Below, piece after piece: positions 1 to 43,352 of a stretch of DNA of 64,000 bases. This stretch comes from Amyelois transitella. Lineage: Eukaryota > Arthropoda > Insecta > Lepidoptera > Pyralidae. How positions within the stretch are numbered: the first letter of the stretch is position 1; each line of letters starts with the position of its first letter. A program made the translations under genes and the position numbers. Below the pieces are notes generated by a model. The model saw only the letters and a program-made list of their open reading frames with translations, did not search any database and had not been told where the DNA came from. Where the stretch lies: positions 7,457,501 to 7,521,500 of the forward strand of contig NC_083519.1 in the NCBI RefSeq assembly GCF_032362555.1. Direction: 5' to 3'.

Positions 1-718
1 TAAAATGGCTAAAATATTACTATTGAAAATATGAACATTAACTTGTATATTTGCTTAGTGCAGACTAGTTTCAGTACGGGGTCGATTCAATTAAAGCGCC
101 CCACTTAGTTGCCGAGTTATGTGCGAGTAGTACGTACACTAACGTATGTAACTGTCAACAAAACTTTGAAATGTATTTAACTGCATTAGTACACAACAAA
201 CCTTTGTGGTTTTAACCTAATGCATTATGTGTACCATTGTAATTGTTGTTTTTTTTTTGTAATGATAATAAATAAATAATAACTTGCAAACACGGATTTG
301 ATAAGATTATCAAAAGTCGGTGGCATTTAGATATGGGCCAATTCCATAGAGTTCAAAACTATATCTTTAGAAGTAATTAAGTATTCGTAAATCTGATGTT
401 GCAAGCGATGATGGTGACACAATATCTAGTTTTTATATTGCTTCTCAATTCCAATTCTACAACAGCACTAAAATTGCGATCGATGCAAACATGACGGCTC
501 GTAATTTTTATTGTTAAGCACATGTGGGATTCTATTGTTATATTGAAAGCAGTATTATGAATTCTATAACCAATACGGTGCGAGTAGCCAAAAAAGTCCA
601 TTTAGCAAACATGAAACAAAATGGGCTAAAATCGTGGCTGATGTTGATTAGGACACGTCCATAGCGGTAAGAATGACGAGGGCGAATTTATGACATGCAA
701 ATCTATTTTCGAGGTAAA
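1..718. other. AT-rich intergenic DNA, no gene seen
   Basis: No open frame with family resemblance or codon bias is visible. The stretch is AT-rich with short homopolymer runs. The only longer open frame (377-601, minus) has no recognisable motif. Confidence 0.6.
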
Positions 719-966
719 TTTTTTTTTTTTTTTTTTTTACGGGACAAATTACACAGATTGAGTTAGCCTCGAAGTAAGTTCGAAACTTGTGTTACGAGAT
801 ACTAACTCAACGATACTATATTTTATAACAAATACGTATATAGGTAAACATCCAAGACCCAGGCCAATCAGAAAAAGTTCTTTTCTCATCATGCCCTGGC
901 CGGGATTCGAACCCAGGACCTCTGGTGTCACAGACAAGCGTACTGCCGCTGCGCCACAGAGGCCGT
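719..966 (-). repeat. tRNA-derived SINE, full length
   Basis: On the minus strand the element begins near 966 with a tRNA-like head. It has an A-box-like TGGCGCAGCGG near 950 and a B-box-like GGTTCGAATCC near 905. A tRNA-unrelated body follows, and the 3' end is a poly-A tail (poly-T on the plus strand at about 719-738). This is the standard layout of a Pol III-transcribed SINE. It is not a tRNA gene, because the head runs straight into the body with no normal acceptor stem. Related, more degraded copies lie at 3433-3748, 7374-7689 and 48770-49036. Confidence 0.85.
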
Positions 967-1514
967 CGAAATAATTGAAGTGAAGGATAGCTTTATCAAG
1001 GTTCGTATATAAAAACTCTGAAAAAAAAACCTGACGCATCGACAATCTCTGAATTTGGAAATTTACTGTCGAGTTTACCTTATGGTAGGGCCGTGATATC
1101 TCTGCCCCCACTCTGGTTGGTTGGTTTTACGACAAACGTTATCTCGGCAACTGGTACAGAGCAATGCAAATATTTAAACCTTATTAAATTATAAATGAGG
1201 TCCCCAAGGATCTTCCACTCTTGCGAGATGCGTAGATTGCATGAATTAAGGACCCTTTTTCCTTTAGGCAGAGTATGAAGATATTTATTTATACGAGAAC
1301 AATTATGATTTAAGAAGTTGTTTAATATTACCAGCTTGGAAGAGATCAACCCTACGTTTGTTGGTAGATGAATATGTTTATGTTTTATGAAACATAGATG
1401 TTAGCCGATTCTCAGACCTACTGAATATGCATGCAAAATTTGGTTAAAATCGGTAAAGCCGTTTCGAAGGAGTACGGAGACAAACATTGTGACACGAGAA
1501 CTTTATATATAAGA
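967..1514. other. Non-coding repeat debris
   Basis: No gene seen. The segment 1370-1510 resembles retroelement 3' tails common in moths, with wording around gccgtttcgaaggagta followed by acaaacattgtgac. The minus-strand open frame at 1080-1349 matches no family I recognise. Confidence 0.4.
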
Positions 1515-2669
1515 TATACTAAAGCCAACATAATATGCAGATTAATAAAGTACAGAAATGTGATGTGTTCATATCAGTATCCATACAAATGAAATGGCTA
1601 GTTGCAATTCCGATGATAAATACCTGATCCGTGAAACGTGCGTTGTGGAATTAATTCGCTTGTTTTGATTCGGATTATGACTTCCGTACTTTGTAATGTG
1701 TAGAATTTCAGTTGTAAGCGGATAATCGCATTACTGGGACTTCCGCTTCCGTTTAAATTATAAAACATATTTTTGTTTTAATCCAGTAGGTATATCACTA
1801 GGCCGCTTGTTCACTAGTGTTCATAGCACATGCATATCGTGTAGTTTATAAACGGCGAAAGAATTTTCATTATCGGCTTAGTATTTCCAAAGATTTGTCC
1901 TTACAAACAAACTATTACAGTTATAATTTCTAGAATAGGTAAATTGACGTATAAATGTGTCAGCTACTTCTCTTACCGCATAGATTATGAAAGTGAATAA
2001 AAGGAAAGGTTTATTAATTAGGTATAGGTTCTTAGTAATTCTTCTTTTATGCATATTCATATTAATTTAGACCACTGACAATGTATGCTAAAAAGAAAAT
2101 AATATCTAGTTATAAAAACTAATAAACTTCCTCGAAAACGGATTACGATCCGAAAATAGTTGCTAGCTGCGATGAGGCGGTGACAGCACTAAATTCTCAT
2201 TATTAAGACACTTGACTCCACTCAACTAAGCCCATTTCGTCGCGAGCTAAGTGTTTCTTTTTGGGCTATTCATTATATATTTAATACAAAATGCATTTTA
2301 ACTAATGAATTCTTCTATCTATAAATATTTTACTTCTTATAATAAAAATCCTTTAAGGTTCCTCTTAATAAAGTTATATTTGATTGAATCTTACATACAT
2401 TGCTACTTCTCATTAAACTTTTTGTCAAATAATAATTAAATACATTACAAAATAATAAGGCTAATAAACTTGGGATGCTAGCAACTTGTCACTAATTGAA
2501 TCTCAATTCAATATGTTATTGTATAGCTGAACGTAGCCTTCATTCTTTTCAAGTATTGGCTCTGTCCACCACGTAAAGTATAGAGACGTGAATATAATAT
2601 ATTTGTACCGAAAAAAAAAAATTCACCAACGCTACAGAATAGCATAAATTATATATAATTCTAGGACTG
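1515..2669 (+). repeat. Older third copy of the 1.19-kb TIR element, left terminus missing
   Basis: This segment matches 4267-5420 almost base for base but starts inside the left terminal inverted repeat. It carries several differences from the palindrome copies, for example gtgacagcac against gtgaccgcac near 2183, tatataattct against tatagaattct near 2650, and one extra A in the poly-A run near 2610. It includes a nested copy of the retroposon-like family at about 2455-2605. The 60-residue open frame at 1878-2060 (minus) recurs in all copies and is not supported as a gene. Confidence 0.85.
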
Positions 2670-2892
<223 letters not shown>

Positions 2893-3137
2893 CAGTCCTA
2901 GAATTCTATATAATTTATGCTATTCTGTAGCGTTGGTGAATTTTTTTTTTCGGTACAAATATATTATATTCACGTCTCTATACTTTACGTGGTGGACAGA
3001 GCCAATACTTGAAAAGAATGAAGGCTACGTTCAGCTATACAATAACATATTGAATTGAGATTCAATTAGTGACAAGTTGCTAGCATCCCAAGTTTATTAG
3101 CCTTATTATTTTGTAATGTATTTAATTATTATTTGAC
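2893..3137 (-). repeat. 245-bp inverted fragment of the TIR element
   Basis: This piece matches 5702-5946 directly, including the terminal repeat that starts CAGTCCTAG. It stops abruptly at ttatttgac, where the palindrome arm begins. With the copy at 1515-2669 it forms a second, smaller inverted repeat around the AT tract. Confidence 0.88.
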
Positions 3138-3432
3138 GATACACAGAGCTTCAACATGTTAAACACAGAGTCAGTAAGCTCTGAAGGGAATCACGACGCG
3201 ATCCAACCCAATGCGACTATGTTATAAACAGTTATAGTTAGCTTTGGCTCGTGGCTTCGCACGCTTTAAATATTTTTTCCGTTTAATATTTCAATTTTTT
3301 CCGTTCCCATGGGATTTTCAGAATAAAAAGCACATGTTGTCCTTGGATAATGATTAACTATATTTATACAAAATTTCATTAAAATACATCCAGCCTTTAG
3401 CGAGGTATTGCCGTGAAAACAACTGAAGTGAC

Positions 3433-3748
3433 AAGTTGAGCCGAAAACGTAATAAACAGACTTTCGGATTTACAATTATTTTTATTGATATGAATGGATT
3501 ATGATGATGATGATGGAATTAAGATTTAAAGTTATAAAAGTGAGATTTAAAAATTGTAAAATATAGCAAGCCCTTTGCTTACAGATTGTACCAAAAAGGG
3601 TATATAAATAAATAAAAATAAATATACGGGACAAATAACACAGATTGAGTTAGCGTCGAAATAAGTTCGAGACTTGTGTTACGAGAATAATAAATAACAT
3701 GATCATATCGCAGACAAGCATATTATCGCTGCGCCACAGAGGCCGTCT
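3433..3748 (-). repeat. SINE copy in left palindrome arm (internally deleted)
   Basis: The tRNA-like A-box region (tgcgccacagaggccgtc on the plus strand, near 3730-3747) is kept, but the B-box region is deleted. The shared body and a longer 3' tail (down to about 3433) are present. It is the mirror image of 7374-7689. Confidence 0.75.
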
Positions 3749-4226
3749 GTAGATAAGTAGGTATATACAGAAGTGTACACAGCATTCCCCATGGGTCGAA
3801 TCGAAATGTCGAAAAGATAATTAAATTTCCATACAATTTGTATCGATCGTTTGTTTACAATGAAGACCATTATTTTAATGTCGATGTCGATTCATGGAAT
3901 CCTATTGGAAAAAATGACCGTGCCCAATAAAAATATAAATGCTTATACAGTACCCTCTGTAAGCATATATATATATATATATATCCTTTTTGTTATACAT
4001 TGTATAACGTGACAACATACTAAGCGATTCGGCATAACAGCTGCGACCCGACCCGGCATAATTTTCGACTTATGCTACCTTCTACCGCTACCCTACAAGC
4101 GTTTTTTTCCATTTTCACTTAACACAAGCAGTAAACGAGTGGAGTAACTACTTTTATTATTAAAATCAATTCGTCACGTTAAAAAACTTAAAGTCAAACA
4201 AAAATCACGTCACTCAATTTTTAATT

Positions 4227-5420
4227 CAGTCCTAGAATTCTATATAATTTATGCTATTCTGTAGCGTATACTAAAGCCAACATAATATGCAGATTAATAA
4301 GGTACAGAAATGTGATGTGTTCATATCAGTATCCATACAAATGAAATGGCTAGTTGCAATTCCGATGATAAATACCTGATCCGTGAAACGTGCGTTGTGG
4401 AATTAATTCGCTTGTTTTGATTCGGATTATGACTTCCGTACTTTGTAATGTGTAGAATTTCAGTTGTAAGCGGATAATCGCATTACTGGGACTTCCGCTT
4501 CCGTTTAAATTATAAAACATATTTTTGTTTTAATCCAGTAGGTATATCACTAGGCCGCTTGTTCACTAGTGTTCATAGCACATGCATATCGTGTAGTTTA
4601 TAAACGGCGAAAGAATTTTCATTATCGGCTTAGTATTTCCAAAGATTTGTCCTTACAAACAAACTATTACAGTTATAATTTCTAGAATAGGTAAATTGAC
4701 GTATAAATGTGTCAGCTACTTCTCTTACCGCATAGATTATGAAAGTGAATAAAAGGAAAGGTTTATTAATTAGGTATAGGTTCTTAGTAATTCTTCTTTT
4801 ATGCATATTCATATTAATTTAGACCACTGACAATGTATGCTAAAAAGAAAATAATATCTAGTTATAAAAACTAATAAACTTCCTCGAAAACGGATTACGA
4901 TCCGAAAATAGTTGCTAGCTGCGATGAGGCGGTGACCGCACTAAATTCTCATTATTAAGACACTTGACTCCACTCAACTAAGCCCATTTCGTCGCGAGCT
5001 AAGTGTTTCTTTTTGGGCTATTCATTATATATTTAATACAAAATGCATTTTAACTAATGAATTCTTCTATCTATAAATATTTTACTTCTTATAATAAAAA
5101 TCCTTTAAGGTTCCTCTTAATAAAGTTATATTTGATTGAATCTTACATACATTGCTACTTCTCATTAAACTTTTTGTCAAATAATAATTAAATACATTAC
5201 AAAATAATAAGGCTAATAAACTTGGGATGCTAGCAACTTGTCACTAATTGAATCTCAATTCAATATGTTATTGTATAGCTGAACGTAGCCTTCATTCTTT
5301 TCAAGTATTGGCTCTGTCCACCACGTAAAGTATAGAGACGTGAATATAATATATTTGTACCGAAAAAAAAAATTCACCAACGCTACAGAATAGCATAAAT
5401 TATATAGAATTCTAGGACTG
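4227..5420 (+). mobile_element. 1,194-bp non-autonomous DNA transposon candidate with 40-bp TIRs
   Basis: Both ends carry the same 40-bp inverted repeat, beginning CAGTCCTAGAATTCTATATA at 4227 and mirrored at 5381-5420. The interior has no transposase-like frame, only a 60-residue open frame at 4630-4812 (minus) and a nested retroposon-like copy. The flanks are AATT on both sides, which could be a 4-bp target duplication but is uninformative in such AT-rich DNA. The ends do not match a superfamily I can name; CAG...CTG termini would fit hAT, but no 8-bp duplication was seen. Confidence 0.7.
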
Positions 5421-5701
<281 letters not shown>

Positions 5702-6895
5702 CAGTCCTAGAATTCTATATAATTTATGCTATTCTGTAGCGTTGGTGAATTTTTTTTTTCGGTACAAATATATTATATTCACGTCTCTATACTTTACGTG
5801 GTGGACAGAGCCAATACTTGAAAAGAATGAAGGCTACGTTCAGCTATACAATAACATATTGAATTGAGATTCAATTAGTGACAAGTTGCTAGCATCCCAA
5901 GTTTATTAGCCTTATTATTTTGTAATGTATTTAATTATTATTTGACAAAAAGTTTAATGAGAAGTAGCAATGTATGTAAGATTCAATCAAATATAACTTT
6001 ATTAAGAGGAACCTTAAAGGATTTTTATTATAAGAAGTAAAATATTTATAGATAGAAGAATTCATTAGTTAAAATGCATTTTGTATTAAATATATAATGA
6101 ATAGCCCAAAAAGAAACACTTAGCTCGCGACGAAATGGGCTTAGTTGAGTGGAGTCAAGTGTCTTAATAATGAGAATTTAGTGCGGTCACCGCCTCATCG
6201 CAGCTAGCAACTATTTTCGGATCGTAATCCGTTTTCGAGGAAGTTTATTAGTTTTTATAACTAGATATTATTTTCTTTTTAGCATACATTGTCAGTGGTC
6301 TAAATTAATATGAATATGCATAAAAGAAGAATTACTAAGAACCTATACCTAATTAATAAACCTTTCCTTTTATTCACTTTCATAATCTATGCGGTAAGAG
6401 AAGTAGCTGACACATTTATACGTCAATTTACCTATTCTAGAAATTATAACTGTAATAGTTTGTTTGTAAGGACAAATCTTTGGAAATACTAAGCCGATAA
6501 TGAAAATTCTTTCGCCGTTTATAAACTACACGATATGCATGTGCTATGAACACTAGTGAACAAGCGGCCTAGTGATATACCTACTGGATTAAAACAAAAA
6601 TATGTTTTATAATTTAAACGGAAGCGGAAGTCCCAGTAATGCGATTATCCGCTTACAACTGAAATTCTACACATTACAAAGTACGGAAGTCATAATCCGA
6701 ATCAAAACAAGCGAATTAATTCCACAACGCACGTTTCACGGATCAGGTATTTATCATCGGAATTGCAACTAGCCATTTCATTTGTATGGATACTGATATG
6801 AACACATCACATTTCTGTACCTTATTAATCTGCATATTATGTTGGCTTTAGTATACGCTACAGAATAGCATAAATTATATAGAATTCTAGGACTG
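5702..6895 (-). mobile_element. Inverted second copy of the 1,194-bp TIR element
   Basis: Reverse complement of 4227-5420, with the same 40-bp terminal inverted repeats. The open frame at 6310-6492 (plus) is the same 60-residue frame seen in the other copies and has no family resemblance. Confidence 0.7.
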
Positions 6896-7373
6896 AATTA
6901 AAAATTGAGTGACGTGATTTTTGTTTGACTTTAAGTTTTTTAACGTGACGAATTGATTTTAATAATAAAAGTAGTTACTCCACTCGTTTACTGCTTGTGT
7001 TAAGTGAAAATGGAAAAAAACGCTTGTAGGGTAGCGGTAGAAGGTAGCATAAGTCGAAAATTATGCCGGGTCGGGTCGCAGCTGTTATGCCGAATCGCTT
7101 AGTATGTTGTCACGTTATACAATGTATAACAAAAAGGATATATATATATATATATATGCTTACAGAGGGTACTGTATAAGCATTTATATTTTTATTGGGC
7201 ACGGTCATTTTTTCCAATAGGATTCCATGAATCGACATCGACATTAAAATAATGGTCTTCATTGTAAACAAACGATCGATACAAATTGTATGGAAATTTA
7301 ATTATCTTTTCGACATTTCGATTCGACCCATGGGGAATGCTGTGTACACTTCTGTATATACCTACTTATCTAC

Positions 7374-7689
7374 AGACGGCCTCTGTGGCGCAGCGATAAT
7401 ATGCTTGTCTGCGATATGATCATGTTATTTATTATTCTCGTAACACAAGTCTCGAACTTATTTCGACGCTAACTCAATCTGTGTTATTTGTCCCGTATAT
7501 TTATTTTTATTTATTTATATACCCTTTTTGGTACAATCTGTAAGCAAAGGGCTTGCTATATTTTACAATTTTTAAATCTCACTTTTATAACTTTAAATCT
7601 TAATTCCATCATCATCATCATAATCCATTCATATCAATAAAAATAATTGTAAATCCGAAAGTCTGTTTATTACGTTTTCGGCTCAACTT
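7374..7689 (+). repeat. SINE copy in right palindrome arm (internally deleted)
   Basis: Mirror image of 3433-3748. It starts gacggcctctgtggcgcagc and lacks the B-box segment. The 3' body and tail are like those of the copy at 48770-49036. Confidence 0.75.
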
Positions 7690-8938
7690 GTCACTTCAGT
7701 TGTTTTCACGGCAATACCTCGCTAAAGGCTGGATGTATTTTAATGAAATTTTGTATAAATATAGTTAATCATTATCCAAGGACAACATGTGCTTTTTATT
7801 CTGAAAATCCCATGGGAACGGAAAAAATTGAAATATTAAACGGAAAAAATATTTAAAGCGTGCGAAGCCACGAGCCAAAGCTAACTATAACTGTTTATAA
7901 CATAGTCGCATTGGGTTGGATCGCGTCGTGATTCCCTTCAGAGCTTACTGACTCTGTGTTTAACATGTTGAAGCTCTGTGTATCGTTATATCAGGGATCA
8001 AGACGTGACAGGGTATATTTGGCTTCGGAGCTTTGATTCCGGATCCTGGAAATCCAGGGATAGCCCTCGGGTTAATATAATTATAGTGAGGTGATTAAAT
8101 TCATTTTTATGCGGTGTATTCGAATATCATCCTTAGTAGTTATCGGCTTAAGTTAACTTAAGTTTTTCTAATCATTGTATATTTTTTTTTCTCGTAAAGT
8201 ACTTAATTATATTTTTTATATAAATTTGTTTTTCAGTGATTTTTGTTTAGGTCATATTTAGCTTTACTTCTACATTATTTATTGAGACTCAAATTTTTTA
8301 TTTCGCAAAATTCCATCGAAATTTATTGTCTAACTTACCTACTTATATGTTAGACGGGTATTACGAAATAATTCACAAATATTTTTTTTTTCCCAAACAT
8401 ATTCATGAGCACTTAAATCCAAAATAACAAGGTAGAAGTTATCCAGATCCGACTTAAGGAATTTTAAACAGGCGCTGTCAAAGAAATAAATTCTTGTAGT
8501 CGTAATGCTAAAGTTTGAAGGATTCTGAAAGGATGCCAGAAATTCCTCTAACATTCAAAGAGCCGACGGCTCATTTTCTGGGACTAATTTGACCACGAAA
8601 ATTGTAGCTAGTGCTTTAGACCAAGAGTAAACCTAAAAGTAAAAGTAATTAGGTAAGTATAATGCTTTCTAAAAGAGCACATCACAAATATAAAACAATA
8701 GTACAGTACAAATTTTTATCACGACTTAAATATGATAATTTACAGTTTTTATGACTTCATTCTCTTAGGGATTTCAAAATAAATTATTCTTACAGGATAT
8801 ATCTCATCTCTCTAGAGTGTATTCACTTCTCTTTTCGCTTGGGTGCCCGCTGCATTTATCAATGTCCTGCTATGCCATATACGAGTAGTTAGGTACTTAT
8901 CAGCAAAGGTAACCTAGGCTTCACATACATTCATCATT

Positions 8939-9010
8939 AAGCCAAGAACGTGGTCTTCGAGACTATTAGCTCTGTCTTCTCCGTATGGTATAAAGACGTG
9001 ATTGCTGAAA
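8939..9010 (+). repeat. Retroposon-like family fragment
   Basis: Short degraded match to the family core (gaacgtgg, gactattagctctgtc, ataaagacgtgat), best seen complete at 49204-49468. Confidence 0.6.
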
Positions 9011-10151: not shown

Positions 10152-10966
10152 TTACAAACATAAATTTCACAACGTTAGACGCCGAATAAATTACATAAAA
10201 CTAACTTTAGTGCCGCTTTCAAAGCGTCAGTGCTGAAGAAGCGGCGATACACTCAAATACTCATTTTCAACTCGGGACGTGTGTCATGGATCCAATTACC
10301 TAAGAGATTGGATTCTTATGACAAATGGAAACTATAGTAATACTTGTATCAGCACTAAGCAGAATAACGCAAAAGATCAAATAAATGTAAAGTAGGTATG
10401 TAAATTCAGAATGTGGGACCTATTATAAGGGTTCACTAATTGGCCAAAATCATCCGTTCCATTACGGTCGCTTCCCTTTCAAATTTGTTTGCCTGTTAAT
10501 AGTAAGGCTCATTTGTTAGGAGAGGACAAAAATTTCCTAATCTCTAGGCATTATACCTATGATGTCTTTGTTTGTTTAGCTATTCTGATGACGCTTTATG
10601 CAATAAAAAGAGGGGAAGTGTGAAATAACCTGCGTTGAACTTCTAGGCGAAGTTACTACTACTACTAACGAAGCTACTGTCTGAAAATGTTCATGTATTG
10701 GATGCCCAAAGACATAAGGTAGGGCGAAATAGGATCTTTTTATTTAATAAAAGTGGCATGGGAAATCAAGAGGAAAAAAAGGTTTACCATAATACAAGTC
10801 CCCCAACTTACCAGCTCAATCTGTGTTACTTGTCTCGTATTATTAAACTAATACAGAAATTAAGTATTTTTAAACTTTTCATTCAACAGTGGGCCTAATC
10901 TTAATTCATTCATTCCATCTTTTCCATGGATGTGCGACTTCAGGTCACATTTTACGACTACGCTAA

Positions 10967-11100
10967 ACCTGTCACTAATTGAATCTCAATTCCATAATTT
11001 AGCTATACAGCTGAACATGAACTTTTAGTCTTTTCAAGACTGTTGGCTCTGTATACCCTGCAAAGAATATAGACGTGACTGTATATATACGTATGTAATG
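10967..11100 (+). repeat. Retroposon-like family, 3' half
   Basis: Reads from cctgtcactaattgaatctc through gactgttggctctgtatacc to agacgtgactg, ending in a TATG-rich tail. Confidence 0.75.
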
Positions 11101-15290: not shown

Positions 15291-15422
15291 CTACCAACCT
15301 GTCGCTATTTGAATCTAAATTCTATCATGAAGCCATACAGCTGAACGTGGCATTTCGTTCTATTCAAGACTATTAGCTCTGTCTACCCCGGAAGAAATAA
15401 AGACGTGATTATAATATGTATG
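15291..15422 (+). repeat. Retroposon-like family, 3' half
   Basis: Runs from caacctgtcgctatttgaat through cagctgaacgtgg and gctctgtctaccccgg to aaagacgtgatt, with a TATGTATG tail. Confidence 0.78.
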
Positions 15423-17113
15423 TTTGCTTATTTATTTACTACAATGCGCCCGTGAGTCCGTGGCTGTAAATTGAAAAATGACTTCCCGCGAGAATCACGG
15501 GTAATCCTCTATAAGTGCCCGTTTAGACCAAAACAATGCAATTAAATTTTATGTAATAATTTTATTACAACACAAAATATTACAATTAAAAAATACGCTT
15601 CATTAACAGGTTCCTGACCGATAAATCACATATGAACAAATCAATTGATATAACGTTACTATTGATATATTTTACGAACAGGGAAATGGTATTGTATTTG
15701 TAGATAGATGATGATACCCAAGATGCCATAACTATCAGGAAAAGATCATTTTTCATGCTGACCTGTTCCGAACCCTACCGTTTATTAAATAGTAGATATT
15801 ATGTTTCAATATGGTTCCAAATTGGTAACAGATGCCCGAAAAGTTCAAGTTTTAGAAACATGTCTTGCGTAATTTCGAAGTTGAGCTGTGTAATAGCTTT
15901 GAAAAGTTTTGGGACTATCGAAGTGGTGAAATATTACTTCATTATTGTTTTGATGTTCACAACATCAGAACTCTGGTGGTTATTGAGAGGATCCTCCCTC
16001 AAGAAGAGCCTAGAGATAGTCTATTATGACCCAAACCCATTACTCAATTATTCAGGTATATATATTTCCGTCTTATCTTAGTGATCCTTTTCCCTTACAC
16101 TCCTTAATCTAAGCTATGATGAAGTTGACCTATAAACGGAATTATTAACCATCTTCCGGTTAAACTATTAAAGTATTTTTACTTAGTACCTAAAACGAAT
16201 GCCAAGTGGTTTCCAGCACTTCAGTTTAAGACCACTCTTTCTCGTGAAACTTAAATGAAGGCAGTTAGTTTAAAATACTCATCTGTGATATCGTTAAAAG
16301 CTACCACAGAACTTCGAATATTATGCTCACTGGGAAGTTGAGTTCAGTGAATACGTGCTCTGTGATTTTCTCTCTCATGTTTGTGTCTTCCCAGTTGCAT
16401 CCTTGATCATTATGCTTTGAATACTAGGTCCGCTTTCATTGTTTCATCTTGAATGAGCGGAGTAGATATACTTTGTGATACATACTCGAAAAATAATACT
16501 ATAAACTCTGAAAAAATATTCGTATATTAACTTATCCTATTTATTACCATAAATATATTAAACGTACAAAATGCGTAACGGACCACGCGCAATATACGGC
16601 TTCCGGAGTGGCCCTTCACAATCAAACTTTATAATATGCGTGACAACTTCGCCTAATAGGTACCCTTTAAACGTACATTTTGACGATAAATAATTTGTTT
16701 TTATATATTTTACAAATGCATTTATTCATTTACCGAAACAACATTGATACGAAAGCGAACAATTTGATTCAGGACGGTATGACATTATGACGACGGTATG
16801 ACTATCGAATGTCGTGCTCACGAGATCATAGAATTAGCAGAAATATGATACACGTGGGGGATTAAAACGTAACGAAGCTCAGAGTCAACCGCCAGTAATC
16901 TTGTAATTATTCACGTCTCCTGTGACGGAACCAGTGTCAGAAGTCTCATAGATAAATCACTAATGGAATTAGAGTTGAAATAATAGAACAACGAAAAATT
17001 ATAGAAAAGAAAAAGAAATAAAGAAAGAATTAAATTTATATTAGCAAAAAATATAAATAAATATAACTTTAAAATCTTATTCTTACCTATATGCTACGAA
17101 AAAGCTTTCACTC

Positions 17114-20549: not shown

Positions 20550-20673
20550 GCTCTTTGTCACTATTTAAATTTCAATTCCATCATAAAGCCATACAGTTGA
20601 ACGTGGCGTCTTTTCAAACCTGTTGACTCTGTCCACCCCGCAAGGGATAAAGACTATATGTGTATGTATGTAT
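20550..20673 (+). repeat. Retroposon-like family, 3' half
   Basis: Contains gtcactatttaaatttcaat, cagttgaacgtgg and ctctgtccaccccgcaaggg, ending in repeated TGTATGTATG. Confidence 0.78.
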
Positions 20674-22192: not shown

Positions 22193-23703
22193 AACGTGGC
22201 AAAAGAAGGAACTTAGTGGCTTACTACATAAGTCTTTTCCGTACATATTTTTAGGTACTAGTACTAGGTACCTTAAAAATATGTTCGCTTGGAAAATATT
22301 AAGTATTTGAAATTGAAAACTAGGCAGCAGGTAATGGAGCGTAGCATTTGAGGCGTAGCTCTTACACAATTTTTGTTGTTGAAAGCTAAAATGTAGCTCA
22401 AAAATAAAGATTTTTCTAAATATTCGAGCAACTTAAATCTCTCTATATTTTAGTTTTACAGATGATAATTTAATTTGCGGAAAATTGAATTTCCATGTCA
22501 GAATTTCTAGTAAACTTCTATTACAGTAAAAGATAAGAGACTGTCACGGTAATGTAGCCAAAATAGCATGATTAGGGTTATTTGCCTAGGTAAAAGGTAA
22601 AAACTGTTATGACAGTTCCTGCCCTCTAGTCTGCCATATATAAATTAGAAGTCGTATGCGGTTCCGCCCACGTTAAGAAAACACCCGTTAATTTCCGTTA
22701 CCACGGTCAAATTGGGAAATTCTCTTTTAGTTCACACCCCTAGACCACATGAGGAACTACATACATGCCAAATTTCAGTTCTCTAGACCTAGGTTCTAGG
22801 TTTGACGTAGATAAGTCAGTCTATCAATCAGTTTCTTAATAGGTTGTGTTATAACATTAAATTAATGTGCTAATATTCAATGTGCTAATTTGCTAAAAAA
22901 TAATATTCACTTAACAAAGACTATCTTTAAAAGTGTGATAAAAGGGTAAGTACATTAATAACTGCTGGTATTTACAGCGTATTTTTATCTTTCATTTTAT
23001 CTATTACCTACAGAAGATCGATACCCCTATAAGAACAGTTTCCGTTTAATTACCCTTGTTCCCGAATGTTCCCAGAAGCTTATTATCTTTTATAATAACG
23101 CACAGTCTTTTGTTTTTCTATGAGATTGGCTGCGTTGTGTCGCAAAGGTTCGTGTGCTCAGAACCAAATTTAATTGATTCGATTTTCACATTTCTTAAAC
23201 GTTTCATTTTTTACACATGCCGCTTTTTGAGTAGGCAGAAAAAAATATATTGCACAATTTCGTTTTAGATTTATGTTTTTGTTAAAAACTTGAAACTAAA
23301 AGAACGCCCCTGTAAATAGTTTGGTAAAAAAAATTGCGACGAAGTTACACCTGTACCTATCATATAAATTATGTAAACTGAACCAATGTTTAATTTACAA
23401 TTTCTATATTAATTCACTGCGACTTTACTCAATGTGTAAGATGATAAGATCACATAAGATTTATGAGTAAGAGTCACTAGAAATTAAAGTCACCATCACC
23501 ATCGATATGGTGGGCTATCGGTTTGGCAGGCCAATTTGATGTAGCGTACCATCGATGTGGTACACCTTCGCGCTTAAAATCTTCCGATGGGACGTTTTCA
23601 ATATGATGACTACCAACTTCGTACGCCTCTTTATCATAAATTAGACGTTATGACTGTATACTGCATATCATTGTGGATTTGTATGCTCAATATTCAGACT
23701 TAC

Positions 23704-24018
23704 CTCTAAAGGAATGACGCCACAAGTAACGCACACATCAGCCAATGCCAAATGCGTCATCAATAAGTCAACTCTTGACTTTCTTCGCCTGGTCCTAGCC
23801 AAGGTCACCAGCACGGCTAGGTTCCCGAGACCACCGATAGCTAACAAAACCCCATATGTAGCCAACACCGGCCCCTGGTCACGAGGCAAAGTCTCACTCA
23901 AACCAACACTCAAATTGTTATACCCCTCAGTAGTCACGTCAAAATAATCCCAAAACAACTTGTCCACCTCCAGTGTACTCATCTCGCTCTCCTCATACTC
24001 GTAAGAATTTAAGATCAT
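23704..24018 (-). CDS. First coding exon of a GnRH-receptor-group GPCR (AKH/ACP receptor-like), partial
   Basis: The frame starts at an ATG (24018) and reaches a consensus donor (GTAAGT on the minus strand, 23703-23698) after exactly 105 codons, so the intron is phase 0. Residues 1-48 form an acidic, tyrosine-rich extracellular N-terminus with one N-glycosylation site (N35-L-S). TM1 spans about 50-73 and holds the GN pair (N66, N1.50). Next comes a basic loop TRRRKSRVD, then the start of TM2 with LALAD (D94, D2.50) and the exon end at IPLE. Arg/Lys-Ser-Arg-Val followed by HLAxAD and PLE is characteristic of insect AKH, ACP and corazonin receptors. I favour an ACP receptor, with AKH receptor as the alternative. 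These are plasma-membrane neuropeptide receptors. No further exon was found in the window, so the rest lies far downstream or in exons too short to recognise. Confidence 0.82.
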
Positions 24019-24293
24019 TTTCCCAAATAAGAAAAAAATTATTTATGTAAATTATGAAAGCATTTTGCGGATATAAAACCACTCAAAGTAATTTTCCTTT
24101 CGCAAACACAATAAAGAACTTTTTGGTCATTTTATTTCTACTTTTCACTCCCTTTACGAAAGTTTGTTTATTTCCGTTTGGACAAAATAAACATTTTTAT
24201 TATATGCAAATAACACAACTCACTTCTATTTAAGTTTTTAGGCTAAATTAGTATAATCAAGTTACAAAAGTTTTAATTCGCGTCGCGTAAATG

Positions 24294-30710: not shown

Positions 30711-33107
30711 TCAATTTTTACATTTACTATTATAACCCTGATTCCACCACTGTCTAAAGTGATCATGGATATCGACATTCTGAGCTTTCTGTCGATCATT
30801 CAGTGCTGCGCAGATGTTACAAATTTCCCTCCCATTCTCCCCTTGTTCGTATCTGAAGTGGTTGCGCCATCGAAAGAAGTCATAATATCTGGTTTTGTTT
30901 TCCATTATCTCCTTCATAGTTATGGCTAGTTTCTCTGGACCAAGATCGCGAGCATTCAGGTAACTGCCTGGAGGTACAAACCTGAAAGTAAATAGGTATG
31001 ATTGATTGAAAAATCAGCATGATTTTGTTATCAGGAAAAGGTTTAAACCACCATGAGATAAATAATAAATATAATAATAAAGATTATAACACTAAGCCAA
31101 ACAGCTGAGCGTGGCCTATCAGTCTTTTCAAGACTGGTGGCTCTGTCTACCCCGCTAGGGATATAGACGTGATCATATGTATGTATGAGATAAATCATTG
31201 CTAATGCAGAACATCTATGAGTATTTATACTAATATTGTAAATATGCAGTGTTTATTTGTCTGGCTTTCAATCAAAATAGCTGAACCAATCTCCATAAAA
31301 TTGTATTGCGTACATTGGTGCAAGTCGTCTTAAACCTACCAGAAGCTAAAAGAGGACGAGGCCGCCCGCCATTGACCTTGTCAAGTGGTCAAGCACTAAC
31401 AAAGAACTCGACCAAGCCCAACTTCCCGGTGTGACAACCCAGAACAGATATACCGATACACCTGGCGCAAATTAGGAGACCCGACCCCAAATCTATACTA
31501 ATATTATAAAGCTGAAGAGTTTGTTTGTTTGAACGCGCTAATCTCAGGAACTACTGGTTCGAATTGAAAAATTCTTTTTGCGTTGAGTAGACCATTTACC
31601 GAGGAAGGCTTTAGGCTAACTATTTTACGCGAAAGAAGTCGCGGGCACAGCTAATAATACGATAAGAAGAAATTTAGTTAGGAGGTACTTTTTACGCGGG
31701 TGGAGAAACGGGCAAAAGCTAGTAGTACCTAAGGATATAAATTAAGTCGGTGTCAGGCTCACAAAAGATTCCTTTCTTACGGCAATATATAAACATATAG
31801 TGACATTGGTTTTTATTGAAGCACAGACATAAGACTTATATCTATATCTCAATAAACCCCATAGCCAATGGATCATTAATTTACAGAAAGGATCAAAGAA
31901 GAACACTCTCAATGAACACCGATAATAATAACATTTGGTACTGATTCATTCAGTTAGTAATTTTGTTTGATTATTTAATGTAAACGTGAAACGTGGTTCA
32001 TAAGGTTCTGTGATTAAGATTTTATTTTTCCCTTTCCCAAAATACATTCATACCATCACACCTGTCTCCCAAAGGGGTACGCAGAAACTATGGATTTACA
32101 CTTTCTACGATCCTTACAGACATCTCCCGTTTCCTCTTTTTTCAAAATTACAAATAAATCTTCAATAAAATTGGCACCTACCTAGAATAGTCTGCCCCGC
32201 CAAACACAACAGGAACAGCAAAGTTATTTAATGCGGTAAGTAGTTTCTCCGTGACGTAGTCTTCCGCGAAAGAATTCTCAAAAGAAAAGTAGAAATAATA
32301 GTCTTTCTTCAACATGTCGTAGCATTCATTGGCTTTACTTCTTGGACACTCTAAATCACCGCACTTGCCGTACACATCTAACGTTATATTTAACTTTGAT
32401 AGCTCTGGCTTTAGCTTTTTTACAAAATCTTCTCTGCCTCCTAAAGTGGTACAGTGAGTTACAAACCAGGCAGCAGTTTTAGACTTTCCGTCCAATACAG
32501 CTTTAGTTTCTTCATCATCTATTGGTTTCATTTCTTCAGGCCATTCCATCTTTGGTTTCGGGCCAACTTCAACACCATCCAAATTATAAATTAGTATATA
32601 TGACCATCGCACATCAGAGTCCAGTTTGTAAGTCCAAGTCCAGTTGAAAAACTTCTCCAGTACGGCTTTACAAGCCATTCTGTTTGGGGCAGACTCGGTG
32701 GCTCCAAATACAAACTTTTGTGTCAACGATCTCTCTTGAGGTAATTGATCTTGATTCATTCTAATTACGTCATTGCCATTAAAAACTATGGCATCAAAAT
32801 CTTTGATATGAGGTAAATACGTTCTGTTGTCAGTGACAAAACAGTTTTGGTAAGGACAATTGAGTTGTACGAACTTACTTGGCCCTTTGCCCATATGATA
32901 GAAAGGCGACACTTCTCCTGTAGTCCATTGCAATATGTAATAAATTTTTGGATCGCTTATGTTCGCCGCAGGTGTGCATGCATTGAAGTCAGTCGTTATA
33001 TAAACGTAATAAATAAAAATCACTATACACGTCAAGCATAAAAATAAAAATTTATACTTTTGAGGGTTATTTTGTGATGCAACGAGAGGCAGCCATTTTT
33101 GCGTCAT
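30711..33107 (-). CDS. Alpha-1,3-fucosyltransferase (GT10), paralogue 1
   Basis: Two exons, 33107-32182 and 30981-30711, joined in phase 2 (AG|G, Arg), give 398 residues ending in TGA. It is a type II Golgi protein: a short cytosolic tail, one membrane anchor at about 20-37, almost no stem, then the catalytic domain. The GT10 donor-site block runs from about 270, with SFENS (E277, N278) and DYVTEKL (K288), followed by AVPVVFGG and the PPGSYLN segment just after the splice. Family enzymes transfer fucose from GDP-fucose to GlcNAc in alpha-1,3 linkage; the acceptor here is unknown, and the overall look is of the insect FucTC-like group. The 1,200-bp intron is filled with repeats. The second intron of the neighbouring paralogue is absent here: sequence reads straight through EQGEN at that point. 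Divergently oriented to 38470-40383. Confidence 0.93.
31090..31188 (+). repeat. Retroposon-like family, 3' half (fucosyltransferase intron)
   Basis: Contains acagctgagcgtggcctatc, caagactggtggctctgtct and atagacgtgatc with a GTATGTATG tail. Lies in the intron of the minus-strand fucosyltransferase, antisense to it. Confidence 0.8.
31355..31490 (+). repeat. Non-LTR retrotransposon fragment (C-terminal RT tail)
   Basis: Conceptual reading gives RGRGRPPLT near the start and a LPGVTTQN motif about 20 codons later, resembling the C-terminal tail of moth RTE/CR1-type reverse transcriptases. Frames are broken. It lies between two Helitron-like pieces, so the insertions are nested. Confidence 0.6.
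31492..31655 (+). mobile_element. Non-autonomous Helitron-like element
   Basis: Starts TCTATACTAATATTATAAAG and ends CGCGGGCACAGCTAAT. The body matches the reverse complement of 9883-10151 (ctcaggaactactggttc; gaggaaggctttaggct). No coding capacity. Confidence 0.72.
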
Positions 33108-33595
33108 GGTTTTAAGATCTTTGAATTAATCAATATGAAACCAAACATATTTTTCCATTATACCTAAGTCACATTGGATACGGTCCGTAGGAAAATCATT
33201 TACTCAAATTATTAACAACATTTTTGTCATGATTACATGTTCTTTTTTTTGAAATCTATAGAATTGTAGTAATGGTCAGATTATAGCGAATACTGAAACG
33301 AGGCACTTTGATAATTCTAACAATCAAACTAAATATAACGTTTTTATATACAATTTAAAGTATAATGAATAAACTGTTCTTCTATTCAAATGTGTGGGCA
33401 GAGACTAACATTAGTAATATCCATTGATATGATAACATTGTCAGATATGATAAGAGTATACACATATATATACTTTATACACATGTATACTTTGTAATAT
33501 ACCTACACCATTGTATGAATCACCTTGAAAGAGTACCATGCTATGATTATGAAGTGTTTAAGCAAAAAATATACGTACATAGCATACCTTGTGTA

Positions 33596-33832
33596 ATAGG
33601 ACAACTCCATCTCTTTCCCATGGATGTTGTAAAAGGCGACTAAATAATAGGCTTATTAACTTGGGATTTTTCTTTTAGGCGACGGGCTAACAACCTGTCA
33701 CTATATGAATCTCAATTTTATCATTAAGCCAAACAGCTGAACGTGGCTTATCAGTCTTGCCAAGACTGTTGGCTGCTTCTACCCCGCAAGGTATATAGAC
33801 GTGATAACATGTATGTATATACATACATAGTT
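33596..33832 (+). repeat. Retroposon-like family, nearly full length
   Basis: Carries the head actccatctctttcccatgg with gttgtaaaaggcgac, the middle gcgacgggctaacaacctgt, and the end ctgaacgtggcttatcagtc with atagacgtgataac, followed by ATGTATGTATATACATAC. No TIRs; the ATGT tail fits a retroposed element. Confidence 0.85.
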
Positions 33833-35858: not shown

Positions 35859-38469
35859 AGAAAATTTCATTTTGAGTCACGATCATAGATGAATTGAGCA
35901 CTTGAGCGCTAACGCGAGCAAAATATGCTAGTTTTGTATTGCTAATATCTTGGTTACATTGCGACACTTAGTAACTTTTTCGATTACCTGCAAAACTTGG
36001 AAAGCGGGCATCTAATCAAAAGTTAAGATCACAAATATATCTTTAGTTTCGCTCACTTTGATTCTAATCCATCTATAGGCCATTACTAAGATGAATGTTA
36101 GGAACGTAAGTACATATATATTTTTCTAGCTGTGGCTACGTGCATACGTCTCACATAAAAATTAGAAATATAGAAATTATAAACCAATTTAAAAAATATA
36201 TATGTTCCCAAGAGCTAATGAAATGTCGACATAAAAATATTATTTATTTATCTAACCTACAAATAAAATAGTATTCACAAAGAAAAAATATAAAATTAAG
36301 TATTTATTTAAGTATGTCTGTTATCTAAATCATCTACTTACATAAAACTTGAAAGGTAAAAAACTAATAATTTTGTAGTAATAAAACATATACGTTAATA
36401 TTGTAGGTAATTTCACGGTGTCAACCCTACCTTAATGCTACCTTCAACAAAATAAATCAAATTAATATTTATTCAAAATGTCAATTTATCAAAAAAGGTC
36501 CCAAAAATATTGAGGCTGCATGTTACAGTCATTTTATAATTAAGTGGATACTCTAAGGTTACAGTACATTTGCCTTGGTCCTTTGACTAAGTTATAACAA
36601 CAAAGACATTTTAATAATTCTTTGAAGATAAATAAAGGTTATACTATCTAACTTCAGAAATGAGGACACTGATTGACTAACATATCAACGTACCTACAGC
36701 CTAACTGCTGAGTATTGAAATTTTAGCACGTAGGTTTCTTATGAAGTCTAAGAGTAATTATAAGAAAGGATTCTCTGAAATTAGGGATTAAGTGGGTGTT
36801 TACGGTGGAAGAGTATTTTTTTTAGTGGGCGGAGAAGTCTAGTTCTTCATAAATGAAATAAAATATAATTTAAAATCGTATCACAACATACCAATACACA
36901 GAAAAAGTTAATATATATATAGGTATAACGCATAACTGGTACTGACACAAAAACCTAAACCAATTCATGAAACCCATATTAAGCCATATTTATAAGCTGA
37001 GATCAGGTCAGTGAAAATAAGCTTCTAATAATATTAAATAGCTAGATAGTTATTTTTTATTTGTGGCACACTAAACGTAGTAAGCCAAGTACCTAGCTAC
37101 CTTTAGAACTAATGTGCGCGACCTCCGAAATGTTGTTAGGAGTCGATACCCCATACAATAAAATTATCTTATAATGTTTTCTTTTCAAATTGTGCATAAT
37201 ATTCTCGCTCAAATGTTCGGCTTATACCTCTTTGATCTTACGTTTATTTACTTTAATTATAAAATTTAAAAGATAACTGAAGATAGTTTTTGTTTTAAGT
37301 TTAGCCATGCCCGCAATGGGCATCTTTTTAATAATATTTAAATAAAGTATGTAAATATTTAACAAAAAAAAAACTTTTAAGCAAAATGTACACTAAATTT
37401 AGAAAAAAATTACAATAATTAAACTCAGAATAACACGTGCTATGATTAAAACTCGAAAATGAGGCGAACGTTGCAAAAAAATTACAGTAGGTACCTACTT
37501 TATAAACTATGTATATAGATCATCAGAGCCTATTCAAATTTTACGATTTTAATGTCGAAGGCTGTATGCGCCCTGCTTAGAAATATTTAATTAATCTATT
37601 TACACGAGGAATAGATAATTACTTAGATCTATTGATAACAGTTTTCCTCAACGAGTTACTTATCTATGTGATAGTGTTATCGCCGCTCAATAATTGGACA
37701 CGCCAGGTGATAGCAAAATTCCTTTTTGGGGTTAGGGAATATCCATAAAATGGTTTATTTGTGGTGACAGTGTCAGTACTGTTGTGTCTTAAGTTACACG
37801 TAAAAATAGTCTTACACACCGTGATTGAAATTTGAACCGGCTATTCCTAGAGATAACGAAGAAGTGGACATTGAAAAAAAATATGAAGATACATTTTTGT
37901 TATTTTTAACAATAATTGTGTGCATATACATAGTAACAGCTACGTGCTAAATGAATATATAAAATTATGACCAGCTATAGAAAATTATAAGACACTTTGA
38001 GGATTCCCTTCAGCGAATAACGAGAAATGCACAATGCAAATGAGACTTCATTTCACACATCAGATGTATTGACGATATTGGCTGATATATTGATGAAGAA
38101 TAATTAAATACTCAGGTACCAATGTTAATCTGACCTGTTGAGACTTTGTAATAATGTATGCCACAGATTTGATGTTTTCGGACAATTACCTACACACGTG
38201 CTGTGTTCAAATTATATAGTATAGTTGATGACCCAATTAATTTTAGAAGTGAACATGACATGTGAAAAGGTGTGGTCCTTATTTAAAAGGAGGTTATAAT
38301 AAGTGTCTAATCTAAACTAGATACCTATTACCCTATTACCTTACAGTGACATTTTATCCTTATTTTAAAAAGCAGACATTTAATATGACGGCTAGAAAAT
38401 AAACATGTGTAAGTATTGAAATGTGCATCTAGTATGCGGATACCTTCATCATATCATATGTAATGTGTA

Positions 38470-40383
38470 ATGTTTAATAAAATGGAAAACATTAACATTA
38501 ATAGATCATCCTATTTGGGAAAGGGATTTATAATCATCTGTATATTAGCCTTTGTGGTTTATATGTATTATGCTAAATATCTTATTGAAGAGAATTACAA
38601 CTGGAAATGGAATTCTAATGATCTTACTGATTTGAAGACAAACTATGATATGGAATACCCAACTTCTGATGATGCTATCACAAGTACAATAGAAGGCCAA
38701 ACAAAAGACAGAGAATCAACAACTCTTGTAAGTATTTCACAAACTGTTACAGAAACGACAAATAAAACGACCACAGTCGATATCGAAAAATTAAGGAGAG
38801 TAACTATTCTGCAGTGGTCTTCAGGGAGAAACTCTCCGTTTTATCACATGGGAAGACAAAATATAAATTTCATCAAATTATCATGCCCTTTCAGCAACTG
38901 CTATGTGACTGATTACAAAAGATACTTTAAAAGCTTTAATCAATTTGATGCTATTCTTTTTAATGGTAATTTTGTTATTTATAAAGATAAAAATGAGTTA
39001 CCCCAAGATCGTTCACCTACGCAAATGTATGTATTTGGTGCAACAGAATCAGCTCATAACAATCCTGCTTGTAAGCCGGTTTTGGACAATTTCTTTAATT
39101 GGACTTATACTTATAGATTAGATTCAGACGTACGTTGGTCATACATTCTGATATATGACAAGAACGGCACTGAAGTTGGTCCTAAATCAAACATGTCATG
39201 GCCTAAAGAAATGGATCCTATTGATGAAAATACCAAATCAATTCTAGATGGTAAATCAAAGACTGCAGCTTGGTTTGTCTCACACTGTAATACCTTGAGT
39301 AAAAGAGAAAATTTTGCTAAAGAGGTGGAAAAGGAACTGCAAAAGATTGATGATAATATGTCAGTCGATGTATACGGATCATGTGGAAAATTTGATTGCC
39401 CGAGAAGCAGTGCAGATAGGTGCTACGGCTTAGTGAAAAAGGACTACTATTTCTACTTCTCATTCGAAAATTCGTTCGCTGTAGACTACGTCACGGAGAA
39501 GTTGCTGACGGCATTAAACAACTTTGCAGTCCCTGTGGTGTATGGTGGAGCTGATTACTCTAGGTATACATATAAAAGATCTTCCTTGTTTTTAAGTTCA
39601 AAAGTACAGGTGGTGGTAGTAAAAACCTTTGTCTGGGGACACTTCCTCAGTAGAGGCTGCGATTGTATATCTAAGTTTCTAAGTTAATTTAAGATGTCAC
39701 TTATAAAGTAAGACCTAGTCTGAAACTTTTTCAAAAGACAATGTTTCAAATGTATTCTTCCTTTTTACAGATATTTACCGCCTGGCAGTTACCTCAACGG
39801 TCTTGAACTCGGGCCAGAAAAGCTTGCGATCACCATGAAAGAGATCATTGACAACAAAACCCGGTACTACGACTTCTTCAGATGGAGGAACCATTTCACA
39901 TACAAACAGGTAAATAAGAAATAACTTTCAAAAGAATGTATTAAAAAGGTTTCATTTCATCGTCAGAAAGAAGCACTCGCATTATCATTTCTGTCGTTGT
40001 ATTTATCAGTAGCCTAGTTTTTTGAACCCGAGACTCACAGTCATAGTACCAGAAAGCCTACAATCTGCACATAAAGTTATGGGATATATGGAAAATCTAC
40101 AAAGATTTTCATACTCCACCCTGTAATGTAGGTATGTTCTTGTACAAAATTTCATGGAGATCAGATCAGTGACTGCGACGAAGTAACAAAAGCTATATTA
40201 ACTATTTGGGATTGAGATAATTACGATTTAATTTTTATATTACAGGGCGAGAATGATACCGAAATCTGTAACATCTGTACAGCATTGAACGATCCGGAGA
40301 AAGTAGCGGCGAATAGCGTGTATGAAGACTTCAGAGACTGGTGGTATCCAGAGTGGAGGGACCACCACAAATGTAAAAAATGA
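38470..40383 (+). CDS. Alpha-1,3-fucosyltransferase (GT10), paralogue 2
   Basis: Three exons: 38470-39563, 39771-39909 and 40246-40383, all with GT-AG borders, give 456 residues. The start could also be the in-frame ATG at 38482 (Met5). One membrane anchor (about 19-34) is followed by a long stem (about 36-105) rich in Thr/Ser, then a catalytic domain closely matching paralogue 1. It keeps SFENS, DYVTEKL, AVPVVYGG, RYLPPGSYLN and the C-terminal RWRNHF and CNIC motifs. It should use GDP-fucose in the Golgi lumen. The first intron sits at the same place and phase as in paralogue 1 (phase 2, in the Arg of DYSR). The second intron (39910-40245) is phase 0, between Gln and Gly, and is missing from paralogue 1. 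The order and orientation suggest an inverted tandem duplication. Confidence 0.94.
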
Positions 40384-41501: not shown

Positions 41502-43352
41502 TTAACCCTTAAATGGATGATTTTTTTTTCACGTTTTAAAAAAATATATTTGTGTAAAAGACGTGTATTACTGTCTAGGAAAAATTAGTAAAAAAATCTA
41601 GACATGAATTTACTATACTTTTTTTGCAATAATGTGAGTGTTGTTTATAAACAACATTGCGCATTCATTGATGTTTTGCAAGTATGGATAAAAATAAGAG
41701 TGGATATTGTTTTTGAAATGTATTTATTTATTCTTCATTATGATATTTATAAAAACAATTGCTTTTTTTTCGTATCACATAAAGATACACGACATTTTTG
41801 GCACATTTTAAATATAAAGCCTGAACATTTCGGGAATTTGCACCTCTGCTGCTTATCCAGCCAAACTGCCCAATGACATGTCTGATCTAATCTGACGTCT
41901 TTCAAAGGAATTGCTTGAGCTGGTCCACGGAACTTCTTCATTACAAGTTCTCTTTGTATTGTGCTCCGACTAGGTCGACCACGTTTAGCGCCATTTGCAG
42001 GTAGACCCAATTTGCAGAGGGTTTCAGCAAGTTCTAGCCTGAATGGACCCAAATTGAGAAGTTGATCATTTCCTTTCATATTATTTACCTTCTTGAACAT
42101 AACCCATGAATTTATAACTGCGAGGTCCAGGAAATGATAAAATAAGCGCATCGTCCACTTGCGGCTCTTGATTGTGATGTGATAACGACCTATAAATGAG
42201 TCTAATAAGTCCACGCCTCCCATGTGGGCATTGTACTCCTTGATTACTTTGGGGCATAGAATAGCAACTCTCTCTTTCTTCGATTTATCAAAGTGTGTGA
42301 CTGTGGTTGCTGGTTCTGCTCCTACGTAAGTGGAAAGAAGGTTAACGGGCTTGTTATCTTTCCACACAACAGCACTTACGTCAATATCATCCACAGTCGC
42401 CACGTTTTCCTCATAGAATCCTCTGGGTACGTTCTTTTTCATTATAGTGTTTTTTTCAGGCAATTTGCAGTTTCTCAATCGGTTAACTCTTACTGTTCCC
42501 AGTGAGAAAATTCCTTCTGTGAGAAAATGCTTCCGGTATCTGAGTTTCTCCCCTAAAAATAAGGCTGTCTTCAGCAGTAACAAGATTCCGTTTTCGCCAA
42601 ACCAGAGGTCGTTTAGAAATCCCTTGTGATCTACTCTGGGGTGCTGCTTCTTCGGCTTCCAAAATAGGAGGGTCTGGCATATTTTCATCGTTGTCGATGA
42701 CAAGAGGAGGATCAGCATCCACTTTATCAGACTGGGCATTCTCACCTTCATCACTATTTTCAAGGTCTCGAAGAACATCTCGAGCTGTTTGATAATAGTG
42801 ACCTTCAGCCTCTACTTCGGAGTCTGACCTGTCTAAGCCGTCTTCTGAATCTTCAAGAGTTTCTAAATACTTTGTAATTTCGCTTTCTAGTAATCGCGGC
42901 ATGCTGAAAAGCAAAATAAAAATCCTTCACCAAACATGCGTTTATTTAGCAGGCAATGCGCATTGTAGTTTTCCTACAACATTCCATATTTCGCCTTATT
43001 CAACAGTAGCATCAAGTTATTTTCAATGTTTTACTACATAAACATGCAATTGAAGATATAATCAAGCAAATAAAAATATGTTTTATACTTACAATATATT
43101 TTATCAAAGTCCGAACACAGCTACAAAATTTAGTTTCGCGCCACTAGAAAACTTTTCTTCAAAGTGACATTTGACATTACCTTTTTTTCAGATGCATAAA
43201 AATATTGGATAGTGTCAACATTAAAGAAAGTACAAAATTCGTTCAGAAATAAGAACTAGTTGTCAAAAATAACAAAACATAATTAGAAGGTCAATTTTAT
43301 CTGTGATGTTTAGTATGTTGTTTAAAAACAACATTATCCATTTAAGGGTTAA
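41502..43352 (-). mobile_element. piggyBac-family element, internally deleted
   Basis: TTAA is present at both ends (41502-41505 and 43349-43352), the signature target duplication. Just inside, the left end CCCTTAAATGGATGAT and the right end (read inward) CCCTTAAATGGATAAT are inverted repeats with one difference; piggyBac termini start with CCC. A subterminal palindrome of the form gttgtttataaacaac (left, near 41640) and gttgtttaaaaacaac (right, near 43318) occurs on both sides. The transposase inside is incomplete, so this copy cannot move by itself. It ends about 206 bp before the AP-3 beta start codon. Confidence 0.92.
41747..42902 (-). pseudogene. piggyBac transposase remnant, core deleted and frameshifted
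   Basis: The N-terminal part (from Met at 42902, MPRLLESEITKYLE, acidic) runs in one frame to about 42520, then stops at 42483. The C-terminal part continues in another frame from about 42510 (GTVRVNRLRN) through NLLSTYVGAEP and HMGGVDLLDS to the cysteine-rich end near 41780 (C..C.FPKC, MCQKC). The third catalytic Asp is kept in GGVDLLD. The segment that should hold the first two (about 250-300 residues) is missing. The join lies at a 10-bp direct repeat (gtgagaaaat at 42502-42511 and 42520-42529), suggesting deletion between short repeats. Described as broken; not a functional gene. Confidence 0.9.

Follow-up and report, generated by a model that had tools for sequence, protein, structure and literature searches.

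How does a lepidopteran genome assembly come to hold a palindrome of about 4.85 kb whose arms do not differ at a single base? The palindrome lies in a stretch of 64,000 nucleotides of Amyelois transitella (C15:7457501-7521500; contig NC_083519.1 of assembly GCF_032362555.1), which we will call the window. The window belongs to the interior of a 10.9-Mb contig, in an assembly of 327,366,114 bases and 33 contigs, and contains 0 N bases. We lean, though not strongly, towards the view that the locus is a stack of local inverted duplications, which arose when replication folded back or switched template at an AT-rich sequence able to form a hairpin. Such an origin would make it no novel element but a familiar type of rearrangement, one whose history is unusually easy to read.

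The two arms, 3136-5486 on the forward strand and 5636-7986 on the reverse strand, are perfect reverse complements over 2351 bp with 0 mismatches, position i pairing with 11122-i. A first-pass annotation of this DNA had given that coordinate sum and the borders 3136 and 7986; both prove exact to the base, and the sum holds throughout the arms. For one such match the chance expectation has a log10 of about -1316 at an assumed GC content of 0.34. Pairing is lost at 3135/7987 on the outside and at 5487/5635 on the inside. The inner limit lies within an AT tract, whereas the outer limit is a switch to unrelated sequence. The sequence outside 3136 is different from that outside 7986, the distal flanks being kept on both sides, as in an inverted triplication. 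According to the pairing, the left arm consists of a segment U, a 40-bp sequence (t40) reversed, a copy of a segment A (A2), t40, a 30-bp module (m) reversed and part of the AT tract. The right arm consists of AT tract, m, t40 reversed, A2 reversed, t40 and rcU. Between them are 149 nt of AT-rich DNA (5487-5635) outside the perfect arms, where matching reveals an extra m at 5545-5574.

Around the palindrome extends a larger structure, 1515-7986, of which it forms one layer and in which 1515-3137 is collinear with 4267-5946 and, reversed, with 5176-6855. On the left, alignment to A2 identifies A1 (1515-2629, forward), which would be an older forward copy of A. It is followed by the first copy of t40 (2630-2669, forward), which repeat matching shows to have one mismatch to the other five, and by C1 (2670-2892), probably the AT-rich centre of an older inverted duplication; alignments match its positions 2684-2716 to U over 33 bp and its positions 2863-2892 to m. 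The stretch 2827-3137 (forward) is an exact direct copy, 311 bp long, of 5636-5946, and comprises the end of the AT tract, m, t40 reversed and a truncated reversed A. It adjoins the palindrome on the left with 2 bases in common, the first two bases of the left arm, AC, being also its own last bases. Inside the left arm, genome searches delimit U (3138-4226, reverse strand), which is inverted relative to the presumed native rcU and contains at 3971-3997 a motif common with C1, and A2 (4267-5380, forward). Between these, repeat matches place a reversed t40 (4227-4266, reverse strand), with a junction at 4266|4267 to the start of A. Arm pairing and the t40 positions indicate that t40-rcU at 6856-7986 (forward), joined to the right flank at 7987, is probably the native piece.

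How many events would be needed to build this? The 311-bp stretch is present at 2827-3137 (forward), 5176-5486 (reverse) and 5636-5946 (forward), that is, inverted between direct copies, which is the arrangement of an inverted triplication. The remainder of the arm does not share this arrangement: it is there twice, and its A part has a further, diverged copy in A1. Writing x for those 311 bp and y for what remains of the right arm, we can express the young layer as x | y' x' | x y, in which x is triplicated and the first copy lacks y. The older layer would have a mirror topology, with t40 triplicated and A duplicated.

The differences between copies point the same way. Over 1155 alignment columns, 3 substitutions and 1 indel, an A in a homopolymer, separate A1 with its t40 (1515-2669) from A2, and among the palindrome-related copies only this forward copy shows differences. 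Set against 0 differences in the 2351 bp of the arms, the 3 substitutions and 1 indel in about 1154 bp between A1 and A2 have a chance of 0.036 of all falling there at equal rates (substitutions), or 0.012 with the indel. The 2809 bp of sequence that the younger duplication would have added show 0 differences. This is suggestive, not strong, evidence for two layers of divergence, an older inverted duplication of A-t40 and a younger one that formed the palindrome. The first-pass annotation had noted that 1515-2669 differs, which was right; it had also confined the identity to the palindrome, which fails for the exact copy at 2827-3137. Its proposal of a very recent inverted duplication fits, full-length arm segments being found at this locus only and the arms showing 0/2351 differences. 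If 2.9e-9 mutations arise per site and generation, the age of the arms comes to less than ~220,000 generations and the separation of A1 from A2 to ~450,000 generations, estimates that would change under gene conversion or an allelic origin of the differences.

A short insert in the older centre may be a further trace of the copying process. A 27-base motif starting TATAACAAAAAGG occurs 3 times in 327 Mb at no more than 1 mismatch, and all three occurrences are here, in C1 (2684-2710) and in each U arm; the reversed control pattern has 0 matches in the genome. The stretch common to C1 and rcU extends to 33 bp (2684-2716), partly AT repeat. Such a U-matching insert suggests template switching, and chance sharing of an AT-flanked motif between C1 and U seems to us less likely.

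Could the locus be a fold-back or MITE-like transposon with long inverted repeats? Its segment 4227-5420 has perfect 40-bp terminal inverted repeats around an AT-rich centre. That reading was dropped after the genome had been searched for A, U and t40. DNA searches of the 327-Mb assembly score the best 40 candidates, and their counts of short repeats are lower bounds. U (1089 bp) was found at full length at 2 places, which are the two arms, and the other 60 of 62 matches, from the best 40 of 1797 candidates, are short (one of these fragments is the motif in C1). For A (1114 bp), from the best 40 of 3205 candidates, three full-length copies and one 205-bp part were found, all at this locus; of the other 38 of 42 matches, 37 are a dispersed repeat of ~130 bp inside A and one is a 76-bp match at 78%. 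As for t40, all 6 matches at no more than 3 mismatches in 327 Mb are at this locus (control 0), and a 27-base part of it had 0 matches in viral contigs. In its own genome, then, neither a dispersed full-length A or U nor a t40 elsewhere was found among these matches. The bases just outside 3136 and 7986 do not match, so that these palindrome ends have no target-site duplication, and repeats spanning the palindrome junctions were not found elsewhere in the window. There is no open frame of at least 110 amino acids in 1515-7986, and four short frames of A and U (4 of the 49 listed frames) matched no Pfam family. The locus appears to be local DNA and does not look like a transposon in this genome, an explanation which we consider extremely improbable.

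The two AT-rich centres have a marked capacity to fold. Folded as single-stranded DNA, the younger centre (5381-5741) reaches -139.9 kcal/mol, where 100 shuffles average -51.15 (z -32.6); the older one (2630-2932) reaches -95.3 against -46.7 for shuffled sequence (z -17.6). Since inverted repeats fold well by construction, these values speak of capacity and not of use. The turn-round point lies inside the AT centre, whose low complexity hides any short interrupted inverted repeat at which the template may have been switched. Module m occurs four times in the window: the older centre has one copy (2863-2892) and the younger three, forward at 5545-5574 and 5672-5701 and reversed at 5421-5450. 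From a single fold-back one would expect an even mirror; the odd number at the younger centre requires at least one further slip or switch, or else an assembly error in the AT tract.

The copies can also be traced along a hypothetical unduplicated locus, L-A-t40-rcU-R, built by joining window positions 1-2669 to 6896-9000 (N coordinates), to which window positions 1-9000 were aligned. The path runs forward through 1-2672, takes 2681-2716 forward from inside rcU (N2896-2931) and enters AT-rich sequence. It then goes backward through 2886-3137 (N2676 to N2424) and again backward through 3136-4267 (N3760 to N2629), forward through 4267-5427 (N1515 to N2676), through AT-rich sequence, backward through 5695-6855 (N2676 to N1515) and finally forward from 6855 onward, starting at N2629. 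The outer parts match by construction, and the test concerns 2670-6895 only. Those 4226 bases are tiled at 97% identity or better except for 444 bases (2673-2680, 2717-2885 and 5428-5694), the two long uncovered gaps, 2717-2885 and 5428-5694, being the AT-rich centre.

The copy numbers found, the tiling, the junction bases and the divergence are observed; the starting locus and the sequence of events given next are what we infer from the sequence. The ancestral locus would have been left flank, A, t40, rcU and right flank, each present once. In an older step, synthesis would have reversed direction in the AT-rich sequence that closely follows t40 and made a backward copy of t40 and then of A. 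The product would be A-t40-AT-(t40)rc-(A)rc-t40-rcU, with an AT centre that gained 33 bp of U. In a younger step, after 245 bp of reversed t40-A (2893-3137), synthesis would have jumped to the outer end of U at a 2-bp AC microhomology, retraced U, t40 and A as far as the AT centre, reversed once more and resumed its original direction. This would add 2809 bp and yield the perfect palindrome.

Several points weigh against this interpretation. It is drawn from the sequence of one reference assembly. The statistic for two layers depends on 3-4 events, and an allelic origin, in place of greater age, could account for the differences between A1 and A2. As starting order we chose L-A-t40-rcU-R on parsimony, no simpler one having been found, and the AT tract may be native between t40 and U, at N2676. 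Three copies reach the AT centre at N2676, but they are identical to one another and so give no independent support. A microhomology of 2 bp does not carry much weight. The model gives no explanation for A starting, at 4266|4267, with the base that follows the end of a retroposon-like repeat at 1514|1515. Finally, such structures are not common in the assembly, and a rare error would look alike. Inverted repeats of at least 500 bp at 99% identity or more were absent from 20 sampled 10-kb stretches, which make up 0.2 Mb of the 327 Mb and two of which lie beside the window; the nearest approaches measured 267 bp (99.3%) and 510 bp (72.5%).

An error of this sort is the chief rival to our interpretation. 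The youngest layer (2809 bp around 3138-5946) may be an artefact placed on a real older inverted duplication, whether an inverted chimera formed during amplification or library preparation or a hairpin that was resolved wrongly; we consider this a real, if somewhat doubtful, possibility. Zero differences over 2351 bp are what an artefact gives, the AT hairpin is a likely fold-back site, and amplified long-read libraries can hold many artificial palindromes. Published passages report them in 11.8% and 45.8% of reads in two data sets (PMC6218980) and, in two table rows, in 38.46% and 34.1% of matched reads, often as complex multi-inversion forms (PMC13265396). The first-pass annotation had named a fold-back artefact as an alternative, and in the restricted form of an artefact of the youngest layer that alternative stands. 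A plain fold-back is too simple: it would put the right flank of one molecule on both sides, and the outer flanks differ here; the junction 3137|3138 joins the arm to the middle of another partial copy, inside A and not at a repeat edge; the younger centre, with its three modules m, is not a plain mirror; and a diverged inverted duplication lies underneath. In addition, the window runs without N, and full-length U or A was found on no other contig. Single-molecule fold-back is therefore less likely, and a chain of chimeric junctions may still be possible. Because the same junction lies inside A, a collapsed-repeat misassembly was likewise judged unlikely.

Perfect identity alone does not separate recency from gene conversion either. 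Arm-to-arm gene conversion is a property of sex-chromosome palindromes, and an old palindrome here could have had its arms kept identical in this manner with no recent event at all. Two observations make this very unlikely in our opinion: no gene to be preserved was found in the arms, and the neighbouring A1, equally able to pair, has not been homogenised. Local inverted duplication at the AT-rich hairpin is the reading that we prefer to these, and we infer that it happened in the animal and not in the tube.

What could have started it? The segment A1 begins where a dispersed, 5'-truncated, retroposon-like repeat ends (1386-1514, forward, located by genome search; the name retroposon is our presumption). 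This repeat gives 40 matches, 39 of them at other places, at 97-98% identity among the best 40 of 742 candidates. The same end, ATATATAAGA, is found in 5/5 compared copies, three of which are reversed in their loci, and the five agree mutually over 230-260 nt, longer than the copy here. No clear target-site duplication was seen for the repeat at 1386-1514, the best common stretch being 6 bp and away from its ends. It is possible that the coincidence with the start of A is due to chance; a bolder reading is that an insertion event broke the DNA there. On the boldest view the locus is a self-reinforcing fold-back hub, in which an AT hairpin repeatedly, layer upon layer, reverses replication through its own flanks, each event adding a hairpin centre, and in which the first event was perhaps started by an abortive retroposon insertion. 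The latter part is proposed because A starts, at 4266|4267, at the point that corresponds to the 3' end (1514|1515) of a 5'-truncated copy without target-site duplication. We offer this as speculation, and think it unlikely.

Other features of the window may be mentioned. The ~130-bp repeat inside A is present on many contigs of the genome, and 11 window copies, that of A1 included, were identified by sequence alignment: 2477-2607, 10966-11096, 15291-15434, 20556-20672, 31083-31187, 33686-33818, 46414-46505, 49338-49471, 53935-54035, 55791-55925 and 60779-60908. A tRNA-like match at 892-963 (reverse strand; anticodon GTG; Rfam 34.6 bits) may be part of a tRNA-derived SINE, and its part at 928-967 recurs in U at 87.5%. 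Fucosyltransferase-family (Glyco_transf_10) frames at 32178-33125 (reverse) and 38464-39687 (forward) form an inverted gene pair, 69.5% identical over 630 nt; an adaptin frame is also in the window, as is the start of a receptor-like frame at 23668-24042 (reverse), whose 7tm_1 score of 25.9 bits is below the curated cut-off of 30.5. There are two transposase fragments, one at 41747-42811 (reverse; Pfam DDE_Tnp_1_7), overlapped by an open frame at 42483-42926, which we take to be piggyBac-like, and one at 56980-57714 (reverse; Pfam DDE_Tnp_4), presumably Harbinger-like. A 73-bp unit is repeated three times head-to-tail at 52558-52779 (99%), and a 243-bp imperfect palindrome at 50476-50718, 76% self-complementary, is MITE-like by look only. 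Among 14 contigs of the assembly, three, C3, C9 and C21, have lengths (13,252,500, 12,012,500 and 9,180,000) that are multiples of 2,500, which may mean that scaffolds were cut at Hi-C bin edges.

Why should this locus matter? In the cited portions of the literature, inverted copy-number changes come from yeast and human patients. If reads confirm the structure, nature would have preserved in it a clear trace of a copying error of a type already known. In a compact two-layer locus whose insert is short and templated and whose junctions can be read base by base, the seeding of inverted duplications by AT-rich hairpins in a germ line could be tested. The locus is also a practical case on which to ask whether the long perfect palindromes of reference assemblies are real.

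How does it compare with known systems? A literature search found no nuclear structure of this kind in insects or Lepidoptera, from which we claim no absence; insect mitochondrial palindromes are the subject of PMC1762429. In the library palindromes described in sections of PMC6218980 and PMC13265396 there are likewise inverted copies of local DNA, sometimes of several segments, but those exist at the level of reads, while the present assembly itself contains two unlike flanks, a junction in the interior and a diverged layer. Fold-back inverted duplications after double-strand breaks also turn round at inverted sequences with a spacer at the loop (passages of PMC3907307 and PMC10622511); those described there in PMC3907307 are tied to terminal deletions, translocations or rings and have spacers of 766-70,466 bp, whereas this locus is interstitial, has both flanks and has 149 nt between its perfect arms. 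The human 16p13.3 triplications likewise link a pre-existing palindrome with an inverted duplication-triplication, as far as the relevant part of PMC12824621 goes, although they involve a 144-kb palindrome-like repeat and disease alleles and are far larger. In the inverted triplications of PMC10766186 and PMC10766183, direct copies enclose an inverted one, the junctions are palindromic and the palindromes undergo secondary rearrangement; breaks near palindromes can also start such events (parts of PMC10622511 and PMC3907307). The locus resembles these duplication-inverted triplication-duplication (DUP-TRP-INV-DUP) structures, and origin-dependent inverted-repeat amplification (ODIRA), in several respects: an extra inverted copy lies between direct copies, interstitially and with both flanks kept (PMC10766186, PMC10766183), the turn-round may be at an inverted repeat, and the copy numbers would suit a triplication in which one of the terminal copies is truncated, as in the model of PMC10766186. 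In contrast to ODIRA as those passages portray it, the total here is a few kb, a long AT-rich hub takes the place of ~5-nt inverted repeats 40-80 nt apart, and two layers lie at one spot.

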